Assembly: GCA_002171615.1 (NCBI GenBank)
Contig: NHEF01000024.1
Coordinates: 26,027 to 80,255, forward strand
DNA length: 54,229 nucleotides
Source: Gammaproteobacteria bacterium TMED78
GTDB taxonomy: Bacteria > Pseudomonadota > Gammaproteobacteria > Steroidobacterales > Rariloculaceae
Reading direction: 5' to 3'
Part shown: positions 45-17,908 of the stretch, piece after piece
Position numbering within the stretch: the stretch's first letter is position 1
Layout: every line of letters begins with the position of its first letter
The notes under the pieces: model-generated
Database searches by the model: none
What the model was told of the DNA's origin: nothing
The model's input: only the letters and a program-made list of their open reading frames with translations
Translations under genes and position numbers: made by a program

Positions 45-1577
45 ATGAGTTATAGAGTTTTAGCTAGAAAGTGGAGGCCGCTTACCTTTGAGGACCTAGT
101 TGGTCAAGAACATGTTACCCAAACATTGGTAAATTCATTATTAAAAGAAAGGCTTCATCATGCTTATTTATTTACTGGCACTAGGGGCGTTGGTAAGACG
201 ACAGTTGCTAGAATATTAGCTAAGTCATTAAACTGTCTTCTAAAAATTACTCCAAAGCCTTGTGGTAAATGTGAAGCATGCTTAGCTATAGATGAGGGAA
301 GATTTGTTGATTTAATTGAAGTAGATGCAGCTTCTAGAACAAAAGTTGAGCAAACTAGGGAGCTTCTAGAAAATGTTCTTTACGCACCAACCAATGGTCG
401 TTATAAGGTATATCTAATAGATGAGGTACATATGTTGTCTACCAGCTCATTTAATGCGCTTCTAAAGACCTTAGAGGAGCCGCCAGACCACGTTAAATTT
501 TTATTAGCAACAACAGAGTCCTCCAAAATACCAGTAACTGTTCTATCTAGATGTTTACAATTTAATCTTAAAGCTATAAGTATTAATGATATCCAGAAGC
601 AACTTATAAAAATCTCTAATGAGGAAGGCTTTGATATTGGATCGAGCTCTCTACTGCCTTTAGCAGTAGCAGCCAGAGGTAGTATGAGAGACGCTTTAAG
701 CTTATTAGATCAAGCAATCTCATTTAGTGGAGGGGCAGTTACTGATGCTGTCTTAAACAATATGTTGGGCGTAATTGATAAAAATAATCTATTAAGAATG
801 ATTAAAGCTTTAGCACAAGGCGATGGAGTAGAGTTAATTAAGGAAGTGAATTTATTAGATGAGCTATCACCAGATTATTTTAAAACTTTAGATGAGTTTA
901 TGGTTATTTTACAAAAAATTGCAGTTTTACAATTAATTGATTCTGATCAAGATGATGCAGTAAATGAACTAAACGATTTGGCGCATGTATTGTCTAAAGA
1001 AGATGTTCAGCTTTATTATCAAATAGCTTTAAATGGTTTAAGGGATTTGTCGTCTTGTATAGATGTTCGATCAGGCTTTGAGATGACTTTATTAAGGATG
1101 TTAGCTTTTAGACCAGCCGAATCTAATATTGATAAAAACTCAGAATTAAGTTTAAAAAAAAAATTAAAATCAAGTACTGATAAAGCTATAGATTCAAGTG
1201 AAGTTAGTAATAAGGATGAATCAATTCTTTCAGGTTTAAATGCTTCTGGTATGGCAAAATTATTAGTAGATAACTCGAATATTGTTTCAGTTAGTAATGA
1301 AAAGATAGAGTTGATTATTTCTGATAAAAATTCTCACTTAAGTAAGCCAGAGGTTATTAAAAGTCTAGAGTTGTCTTTAAAAGAGAAATTTAAAAATTCT
1401 TTTAGAGTTATTGTGTCTATTGGCAATACTAGCCAAACAAATACAGATAAAAAGAATGAAGAAGATGATAAAGTAAATAGTGCAGCTAAGGCTGCTATTT
1501 TATCCGATCCAAACATAAAAGCTATAGAAGATGAATTTGATGCGATTATAGAATCAGACAGTATTAAGCCAAACTAA
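45..1577 (+). CDS. dnaX: DNA polymerase III subunit tau (and possibly gamma)
   Basis: Clamp-loader ATPase that loads the beta sliding clamp and couples polymerase to helicase. Visible: Walker A GTRGVGKT (residues 45-52), a four-cysteine zinc module (C64, C73, C76, C79), Walker B LIDEVH (124-129) and the sensor/arginine-finger SRC motif (168-170). Domains I-III end near residue 365; the rest is low-complexity, lysine- and serine-rich, as in tau C-termini. At 510 residues it is shorter than E. coli tau (643). A run of ten A lies at codons 370-373, exactly where the conserved core ends, and both shifted frames stop within a few codons. The gene heads a dnaX-ybaB-recR operon, an order conserved across bacteria. 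ATG start. Confidence 0.97.
   Translation: MSYRVLARKWRPLTFEDLVGQEHVTQTLVNSLLKERLHHAYLFTGTRGVGKTTVARILAKSLNCLLKITPKPCGKCEACLAIDEGRFVDLIEVDAASRTKVEQTRELLENVLYAPTNGRYKVYLIDEVHMLSTSSFNALLKTLEEPPDHVKFLLATTESSKIPVTVLSRCLQFNLKAISINDIQKQLIKISNEEGFDIGSSSLLPLAVAARGSMRDALSLLDQAISFSGGAVTDAVLNNMLGVIDKNNLLRMIKALAQGDGVELIKEVNLLDELSPDYFKTLDEFMVILQKIAVLQLIDSDQDDAVNELNDLAHVLSKEDVQLYYQIALNGLRDLSSCIDVRSGFEMTLLRMLAFRPAESNIDKNSELSLKKKLKSSTDKAIDSSEVSNKDESILSGLNASGMAKLLVDNSNIVSVSNEKIELIISDKNSHLSKPEVIKSLELSLKEKFKNSFRVIVSIGNTSQTNTDKKNEEDDKVNSAAKAAILSDPNIKAIEDEFDAIIESDSIKPN
1154..1163 (+). other. A10 tract in dnaX, candidate slippage site
   Basis: Ten consecutive A follow codon 369 of dnaX and encode KKK in frame. In the -1 frame translation continues as IKIKY and meets TGA at 1178-1180, giving a product of about 378 residues. 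In the +1 frame it stops at TAA 1165-1167. Gamma production by slippage on an A tract is known for Thermus dnaX and by -1 frameshifting for E. coli. That it happens here is inference. Confidence 0.45.
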
Positions 1578-2887: not shown

Positions 2888-3766
2888 TATTGACTACTAT
2901 TTATCTTTTCTAGCAGAGTATAGATTTTTAAAAAACTTTCATATCTTTTTTTATTTATTAAATCATTTTTCAGTGCTTTTTTTACCGAACAGTTGGGTTC
3001 TGATATATGCTTGCAGTTAGAGAAATGACACTTGTCTTTAAGTTTTTTAAACTCTACAAAGCTATTTAAGATATCGCTTGCATTCTCAAAGTAAGGAGCA
3101 TAGTTTCTTACTCCAGGAGAGTCTATAATCATTGCTTTATTGGGAAGTGTAAATAGAGTAGAGGTAGTAGTTGTATGCTTTCCTGCGTCTAGTTTTTCTG
3201 ATAGCTTTCCAACTAGTTGGGTTTTTTTCTGTACAAGTTTGTTAATAATTGAAGATTTGCCAACACCGGATTGTCCAATAAAGACACTTGTCTGGCCTGA
3301 TAGTTCGTTTAAAATTTCTACTCTATCATTATTAAATTTATTATTTGTATATATTATTTTATATCCAATATCCTTATAAACGCGTAACCTTTCATTATAT
3401 AAATCACCAAGGTCTGTTTTATTAAATATAATTATTGTTTTGAATTTCTTTATTTGGCTTGTGCATAAGTATTTATCCAGCAAGAACCAGTCAGGTTTAG
3501 GCTTAGGTGCTATAACAATAGCTAGTTGTGTTATATTGGAGGCAATAGCTTCTTTCTTACCATTTTTATCAATTCTAGTAAATTCTGATAGTCGGGGTAA
3601 TATATTTTTTATGATAAATGTATTATTTTCTTCTGAAAAAAAAAACCTTATCACCGACTAATGGGCTAATATTTTTATTTTTAAAGACGCATGAGAATTC
3701 ATTACCTTGAGTAGATTTGATTAAGGCATTTTTTTTATATCTAGAAATTACTGTACCTTCAGACAT
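2884..3766 (-). CDS. rsgA: Ribosome small-subunit GTPase RsgA, frame broken by a T10 run
   Basis: RsgA is a circularly permuted GTPase that checks late 30S maturation. The downstream frame (from about 3654) encodes the GTPase: NKTDL (G4), GQSGVGKSS (G1), DSPGVRNY (G3) and the zinc-binding C-terminus CHFSNCKH...C. Reading from ATG 3766 in another frame gives the missing OB-fold start (GTVISRYKKNALI ... LVGDKVFFF), which runs into TAA just after a T10 tract (coding strand, positions 3645-3636). With nine T the two halves join in frame as VGDKVFFSEENN, giving 293 residues, a normal RsgA length. The break may be a sequencing error, a real mutation, or a slippage-rescued gene. A GTG at 3654 would give only a truncated protein lacking the OB-fold. 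Confidence 0.88.
3636..3645 (-). other. Frame-breaking T10 tract (coding strand) in rsgA
   Basis: Ten T on the coding strand separate the OB-fold and GTPase frames of rsgA. Losing one T (or gaining two) restores a continuous, family-like protein. In-frame runs of nine identical bases occur in dnaJ (28611-28619), rlmE (near 34982-34990), recN and ftsH without breaking those genes. Confidence 0.85.
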
Positions 3767-17550: not shown

Positions 17551-17908
17551 TGGTGGATGCGGCGGGAGTCGAACCCGCGTCCGTCAGCACTCACCAATAA
17601 GATCTACATGCTTATCTCTTCTTTAAGTTTGCTAAAAGCTATCCGAAGAGAGAGAAAAACTTATAGCTAGGCTAGTAAAGTTTAACGCTTAAGCCCTAGT
17701 CAAGCTATCACGCTAGTCTGTATAGATAACTCCTGAATCCGATTGTACAGACACAAATCGGTCAGAAGGCACTAGACTGGTTATTAAGCAGCTAGTGCGT
17801 AGTTGTCGTTATTTGCAACTAAATGGTTTACAGCTGTTTTAACGAGGTAATCTGTCCCTCGACATGCCCTTAAAGGATCATAACCCACGTCGAAACCATT
17901 ACGCACCC
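17551..17908 (-). ncRNA. ssrA: Transfer-messenger RNA
   Basis: Rescues stalled ribosomes with SmpB. On the minus strand the 5' end GGGTGCG (from 17908) pairs with CGCATCC before ACCA (ending 17551), giving a seven-pair acceptor with one G-U. The T arm CGCGGGTTCGACTCCCGC is intact. The resume codon and tag read GCA AAT AAC GAC AAC TAC GCA CTA GCT GCT TAA TAA (17816-17781), so the tag is A plus ANNDNYALAA, close to E. coli AANDENYALAA and ending in the ALAA degron seen by ClpXP. Length is 358 nt. It is adjacent to smpB, as is usual. Confidence 0.97.

Follow-up and report, generated by a model that had tools for sequence, protein, structure and literature searches.

The dnaX gene of Gammaproteobacteria bacterium TMED78 contains a run of ten A, and the question it raises is whether this run is a site of programmed slippage yielding a short, gamma-like subunit, as in Thermus, or whether it is the kind of run that an AT-rich gene acquires by chance. 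The gene opens the window (i.e., the whole stretch of 54,229 nucleotides that was analysed). An earlier note on this sequence had located the run, calculated a short product of 378 residues and proposed that any gamma subunit would arise by slippage on the tract. The location and the arithmetic were correct. As a feature that recurs among the dnaX genes of Gammaproteobacteria, the proposal itself received strong support, through the position of the tracts, the bimodal distribution of run lengths, the use of AAA over AAG and the presence of stops in both alternative frames; for the organism from which the window derives, however, the sequence is consistent with a short DnaX produced by slippage, and goes no further.

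The dnaX gene and its A10 tract

The Pfam domains of a complete DnaX occurred in the order ATPase domain, lid (residues 183–230), collar (232–354) and domain V (379–507); the features are collected in Table 1. The tract consisted of exactly ten A, flanked by T on both sides, and the reading frame across it was AGT TTA AAA AAA AAA TTA AAA TCA. It fell within the linker of 24 residues that separates the collar from the tau domain, and the claim that it lies just past the conserved clamp-loader core was thereby borne out. By gene order, the genes 3' of dnaX are presumably ybaB and recR.

Table 1. Features of the dnaX gene in the window (positions are those of the window)
Feature	Position	Strand	Basis
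dnaX, full-length tau-like frame, 510 aa	45–1577	+	ORF; TIGR02397, 419 bits; Pfam domains
Collar (DNA_pol3_gamma3), residues 232–354, last conserved block ahead of the tract	738–1106	+	Pfam PF12169, converted from residues
In-frame U_UUA_AAA heptamer opening the tract, possible ribosomal -1 site	1151–1157	+	Sequence
A10 candidate slippage tract, in frame TTA AAA AAA AAA, residues 370–373	1154–1163	+	
TAA stop in the +1 frame; 373 aa product with one A lost	1165–1167	+	
Weak predicted hairpin 3' of the tract, probably not significant	1173–1214	+	-7.1 kcal/mol, z = -1.34; 19 of 200 shuffles equally stable
TGA stop in the -1 frame; 378 aa product with one A gained or after a ribosomal -1 shift	1178–1180	+	
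Alpha-binding tau domain V, residues 379–507, missing from the short product	1179–1565	+	Pfam PF12170 (DNA_pol3_tau_5), converted from residues

Both alternative frames close shortly after the tract, and they read as the earlier note had described: the -1 frame adds IKIKY before its TGA, while the +1 frame stops at once, adding only N before its TAA. A transcript with 11 A would therefore encode 378 residues (42.2 kDa) and a transcript with 9 A would encode 373 residues (41.5 kDa); the products from 12 and 8 A are 374 and 377 residues respectively, and the frame is restored with 7 or 13 A. Judged by the Pfam boundaries, a protein ending at residue 373 or 378 would keep its ATPase and collar domains but not the tau-specific end, as in the Thermus type. 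Two further features of that type were observed, namely a single dnaX ORF with a sense-strand run of at least nine A, and close stops in both non-zero frames. A sequencing error within the tract was considered and is unlikely, because the 510-residue frame stays open with ten A and would be lost with 9 or 11.

Frequency of A runs in the genome

The run by itself was weak evidence, and long A runs are not surprising in this genome. The dnaX gene was 33% GC, AAA accounted for 71% of lysine codons, and the window contained 13 matches to A9, against 9.8 in dinucleotide shuffles. In a sample of 454 kb, comprising the window and 400 kb of the same genome (420 ORFs), coding sequence held 37 runs of at least nine A, where 34.6 were expected under synonymous shuffles. 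When the synonymous codons of the window gene were redrawn, a run of at least nine A was obtained with P = 0.42 given its protein, and both alternative-frame stops arose by chance with P = 0.82. The stops and the tract of this gene, taken on their own, are therefore uninformative, because the gene is AT-rich.

Longer runs behaved differently. Only 4 coding runs of at least ten A were present in the 454 kb, against 9.0 ± 2.4 expected under synonymous shuffles, and there were none of at least eleven A (4.5 expected); runs of at least nine T numbered 9, against 20.7 expected. Avoidance of A runs in this genome begins at about ten A, and ten is therefore the length at which runs start to matter in coding sequence. 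Since A9 runs occurred at their expected number, the criterion given in PMC1088944 would suggest that nine A are not slippery here. The dnaX run was one of four A10 runs in the 454 kb sample, and two of the other three were situated inside the first five codons of an ORF; the entire genome (1.57 Mb) contained 23 A10 matches, corresponding to 20 separate A/T runs.

Several other features were recorded along the way. The sole A12 run of the genome (L127; contig C12, 161076–161087, minus strand) splits a gene of the Methyltransf_28 family (PF02636), such that profile positions 2–114 match up to the run and 131–248 match in the next frame; the gene may depend on slippage, may have become a pseudogene recently or may be split by an assembly error. 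An A10 run on contig C16 of the same genome (L132; 81644–81653) occupies codons 5–8 of an ORF whose start, AKKKFGQNFLVDQNI, resembles that of ksgA/rsmA. Within the window, a T10 run at 3636–3645 lies in the first codons of an RsgA GTPase gene (PF03193) on the minus strand, where it encodes FFF, and a tmRNA gene is found at 17551–17908 on the minus strand, with the tag peptide VNHLVANNDNYALAA.

Near relatives

Of 21 other genomes in the same family, 15 had a dnaX match over the cut-off and 14 of these reached the junction between the collar and the tau-specific region. A junction run of at least nine A was present in none of these 14 family relatives, the nearest approach being A7 (L010). Retention among near relatives is not a defining feature of the Thermus type but does provide a test of function, and in the organism's own family it was not seen; the sequences of the 14 relatives thus supply the main result against slippage in the window's own lineage. 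Within the same order, family f13 had a junction A9 in 8 of its 10 genes. The sample at order level comprised 147 genomes, of which 134 gave a dnaX match, and a further 80 dnaX loci were taken from a second contig collection. Phage homologues matched only at below 60% identity and were left out of the analysis.

Position and length of A runs at the junction

Loci were compared using tblastn and an alignment anchored on the motif at the end of the collar, in place of an earlier regular-expression anchor that had produced an ORF for 89 of 114 loci and an anchor for 73. Of 205 loci, 204 were anchored, and the one dropped had a match ending before the junction. After removal of 17 near-identical genes (over 97% ungapped identity), 187 non-redundant dnaX genes remained. 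A run of at least nine A was present at the junction, between codons +9 and +17 after the collar end, in 15 of the 187, and elsewhere in two genes, one of which (L184) also carried such a run at the junction. Given the lengths of the junction and tail, this share of runs at the junction had a binomial probability of 5e-12 when relatedness is ignored, and the sequences place the position of the tract across relatives far beyond chance. In L184 and L274 the tail runs, at codons +196 and +131 past the collar respectively, were also followed by stops in both other frames within eight codons.

The distribution of run lengths had a second mode at 9–10 A that was confined to the junction, where 15 runs of A5, 13 of A6, 4 of A7, none of A8, 12 of A9 and 3 of A10 were counted in the 187 genes. 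Thiothrix caldifontis (L077), a cultivable species, is among the carriers of an A10 tract. Elsewhere the counts decayed steadily, from A5 to A8 in the core (119, 34, 7 and 2) and from A5 to A10 in the tail (111, 38, 12, 3, 1 and 1). Genes with a tract ranged from 33 to 60% GC. Among the 20 dnaX genes below 42% GC, runs of at least nine A occurred nine times at the junction, twice in the tail and not at all in the core, and therefore AT-richness alone does not place the runs there. Two or three junction lysines are encoded in every tract gene, the runs start in all three codon phases and the peptide contexts vary (GKKKP, EKKT, QKKIK, VKKKS and LKKKL).

The earlier note had proposed that relatives be compared at codon level for AAA preserved over AAG. 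Across lineages this comparison came out in favour of the tract: when synonymous codons were redrawn according to the codon usage of the individual genes, 6.8 ± 1.9 genes were expected to have a junction run of at least nine A (maximum 14 in 2000 draws), against the 15 observed. The window gene alone did not depart from the same null, as described above. There were 16 genes whose proteins permitted a junction run of this length with P > 0.1, and L067 was the only one of these without it.

A class-wide scan for A9 within 15–65 bases of a motif coding for Met-Leu-Ala-Phe gave matches in 17 of 369 genomes, compared with 2 of 369 in a reversed control. Fourteen of the 17 were dnaX, counting the window's own gene, and three (L286, L290 and L293) were not, so the scan contributed 13 tract genomes besides the organism's own. 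It sees only part of the class, because a longer core motif was found in just 165 of the 369 genomes. Near-identity between these 13 genes and the 187 was not screened for, but no two of their junction sequences are alike. As 13 of the 28 tract genes were chosen by the A9 pattern, prevalence is to be taken from the 187 genes alone.

Stop codons in both alternative frames

Stops within eight codons in both alternative frames followed the tract in 27 of 28 tract genes. Redrawing the synonymous codons 3' of the tract predicted that 10.4 of these 28 would be closed in both frames, 19.4 in the -1 frame and 15.9 in the +1 frame; the observed values were 27, 28 and 27 respectively. The excess of +1 stops carries more weight, since shifting to the -1 frame on the ribosome has no need of a +1 stop. 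Among the 13 genes added by the class scan, 12 had both stops, and the +1 stop of L279 occurred 23 codons on. Shorter runs served as controls, and both frames were closed after 6 of 31 junction runs of A5–6 (19%) and none of four of A7–8, after 27% of 186 tail runs of A5–6 and 31% of 16 of A7–8, and after 12% of 173 core runs of A5–6.

In a FastTree phylogeny of the core proteins of 200 genes, the tract state changed at least 14 times. Seven supported, independent pairs could be compared; stops in both frames followed the tract in 5.6 of these on average and opposed it in none (median p = 0.03), while the tests of single-frame stops fell short of significance (median p = 0.25 and 0.125). Relatedness was corrected for only in this tree-based pair test, and most other p-values ignore kinship. 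Chance alone was ruled out for the tract genes as a group, on the grounds of position, bimodal length, the synonymous null and two-frame stops; the window gene taken singly is the exception.

Signals of ribosomal frameshifting

In-frame -1 heptamers were present in the window tract, A_AAA_AAA occurring at 1154–1160 and 1157–1163 in addition to the U_UUA_AAA listed in Table 1, and on the shift site alone a ribosomal shift may therefore take place. The E. coli-type signal was rejected, in agreement with the earlier note, which had found the E. coli site unrecognisable. The site reads U_UUA_AAA_AAA_AAA_UUA and does not include A_AAA_AAG; the 25 bases upstream contained no Shine-Dalgarno (SD)-like motif (GGAG, AGGA, GAGG, AGGG or GGGA); the downstream fold was weak, with no clear stem-loop; and the RF00382 covariance model gave no match in the window up to E = 10, this being a narrow model that exceeded its cut-off in none of the 369 class genomes and matched E. 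coli alone among 14 controls.

Among the tract genes generally, an SD-like motif was found in one of 27. The downstream fold had a mean z of -0.65 in these 27, against -0.05 in 84 other genes (p = 0.017), and this slight excess of predicted structure indicates that RNA structure may help in some of them. The genome contained two lysine tRNAs, tRNA-Lys(UUU) and tRNA-Lys(CUU), among the loci of 30 of its 34 tRNA matches. The tracts of five genes (L278, L279, L280, L282 and L091) ended in AAA AAA AAG, and so combined a run of 9–10 A with an in-frame A_AAA_AAG; such tracts may be intermediate between slippage sites and ribosomal frameshift sites.

Explanations for the tract

The A10 tract is probably a real stutter site rather than a chance run, and we consider it fairly likely to belong to the Thermus type of programmed slippage sites, at which slippage by RNA polymerase would yield a gamma-like subunit. 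RNA polymerase would stutter on the ten A and so generate a mixed pool of dnaX mRNAs. Those with ten A, or with three more or fewer, would be translated into the 510-residue tau-like protein, while one A more or fewer would lead immediately to a stop and a protein of 378 or 373 residues, comprising ATPase domains and collar and lacking the alpha-binding domain V. Clamp loaders built with this subunit could load beta clamps while holding no polymerase. What the sequences show is the tract with its two stops, its placement at the domain boundary and the repeated occurrence of this arrangement in dnaX of other Gammaproteobacteria; we infer that slippage takes place, that it is transcriptional rather than ribosomal, how efficient it is and any role for the short protein.

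That the A10 of this organism arose by chance, from a linker rich in lysine and a genome rich in AT, and makes no regulated short protein, is doubtful, although the base composition of the gene, the share of AAA among lysine codons, the expected number of coding A9 runs, the absence of the tract from family relatives and the unexceptional probabilities of tract and stops in the window gene all speak for it; against it, a tract occupies the identical position in many other lineages, runs of at least ten A are depleted in the coding sequence of this genome, and dnaX genes of low GC content concentrate their long runs at the junction. The proposition that lysines are conserved for the protein, as a basic linker, and that the A run is a by-product, would account for the two or three junction lysines in all tract genes, but is very unlikely indeed, given that the peptide contexts differ, that the runs begin in every codon phase, and that both the codon choice within the tract and the out-of-frame stops 3' of it exceed the synonymous null.

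A ribosomal -1 frameshift on U_UUA_AAA or A_AAA_AAA, of the E. coli dnaX type but on a different heptamer, would produce the 378-residue protein with no involvement of RNA polymerase. The in-frame heptamers of the window, the slightly more structured RNA 3' of the tracts and the A_AAA_AAG contained in the tracts that end in AAG are all in its favour. We nevertheless regard it as unlikely: the window has no upstream SD-like motif and a weak hairpin, and such motifs are almost absent from the tract genes; seven A suffice for a -1 shift, which makes a threshold of nine A superfluous, and closure of the +1 frame is superfluous likewise. The nine-A length threshold and the closed +1 frame therefore favour slippage by RNA polymerase.

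Comparison with known systems

In Thermus thermophilus, transcriptional slippage occurs on A9 (PMC1088944, PMC5009743); the window gene resembles it in having at least nine sense-strand A within a single tau ORF, stops near the run in both other frames and a short product predicted to lack the tau-specific end, and the two genomes are alike in possessing two tRNA-Lys species (PMC5009743). Thermus belongs to a different bacterial class, however, and its run is described as lying seven-eighths of the way along, whereas the ten A of the window gene occupy residues 370–373 of 510, directly past the collar. The Thermus type is further characterised by dnaX mRNAs that vary in tract length and by tau and gamma in roughly equal amounts. 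As far as the tree tells, the window tract had a separate origin.

In E. coli, the same gene yields a gamma-like protein consisting of the ATPase domains and the collar, as is proposed for the window gene, through a -1 ribosomal frameshift that depends on A_AAA_AAG, an SD sequence and a stem-loop (PMC3711429, PMC5009743), the AAG shift being attributed to a single tRNA-Lys (PMC5009743). The window gene differs in every one of these signals, as well as in lacking a match to RF00382; its +1 frame is also closed, and its genome has two tRNA-Lys species. The two-ORF dnaX genes of Chlorobium and others have 7–10 A at the tau/gamma boundary, where slippage has been proposed, but are a mirror image of the present case, since the slip is needed there for tau while gamma is the zero-frame product (PMC3711429); in the window gene, tau is read in the zero frame. 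Blochmannia, an AT-rich gammaproteobacterium, likewise has a poly-A tract in dnaX, although there the reading frame is interrupted within the tau-specific part, where slippage would repair it (PMC3017870), and the frame of the window gene is intact.

Significance of junction tracts

A slippage-type tract in dnaX is already known in kind, and the window adds one instance of an arrangement that recurs in many gammaproteobacterial lineages. Searches of a partial, open-licence collection of papers found no account of junction tracts that recur across Gammaproteobacteria and are followed by two-frame stops. Poly-A tracts in further dnaX genes may have been listed before, by Larsen et al. 2000 (PNAS). 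The detection of slippage that shortens a protein by comparative analysis has been called difficult (PMC1088944), and programmed slippage of this kind could be recognised with the two-frame stop test.

According to a 2012 review, most bacteria are without dnaX frameshift signatures and may not make gamma (PMC3290774). The junction tract in 15 of 187 sampled dnaX genes (8%) qualifies this view. The recurrence of a slippage signature exactly at the domain boundary, accompanied by stops in both frames, argues that many lineages benefit from a short DnaX and have put different errors of expression to use in making it. It is likely that Gammaproteobacteria have repeatedly evolved slippage cassettes for RNA polymerase at the tau/gamma junction of dnaX, each consisting of 9–10 A with two-frame stops, and that selection maintains them; gamma production would then be widespread and convergent, and the ribosomal frameshift of E. 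coli would be one of several solutions.
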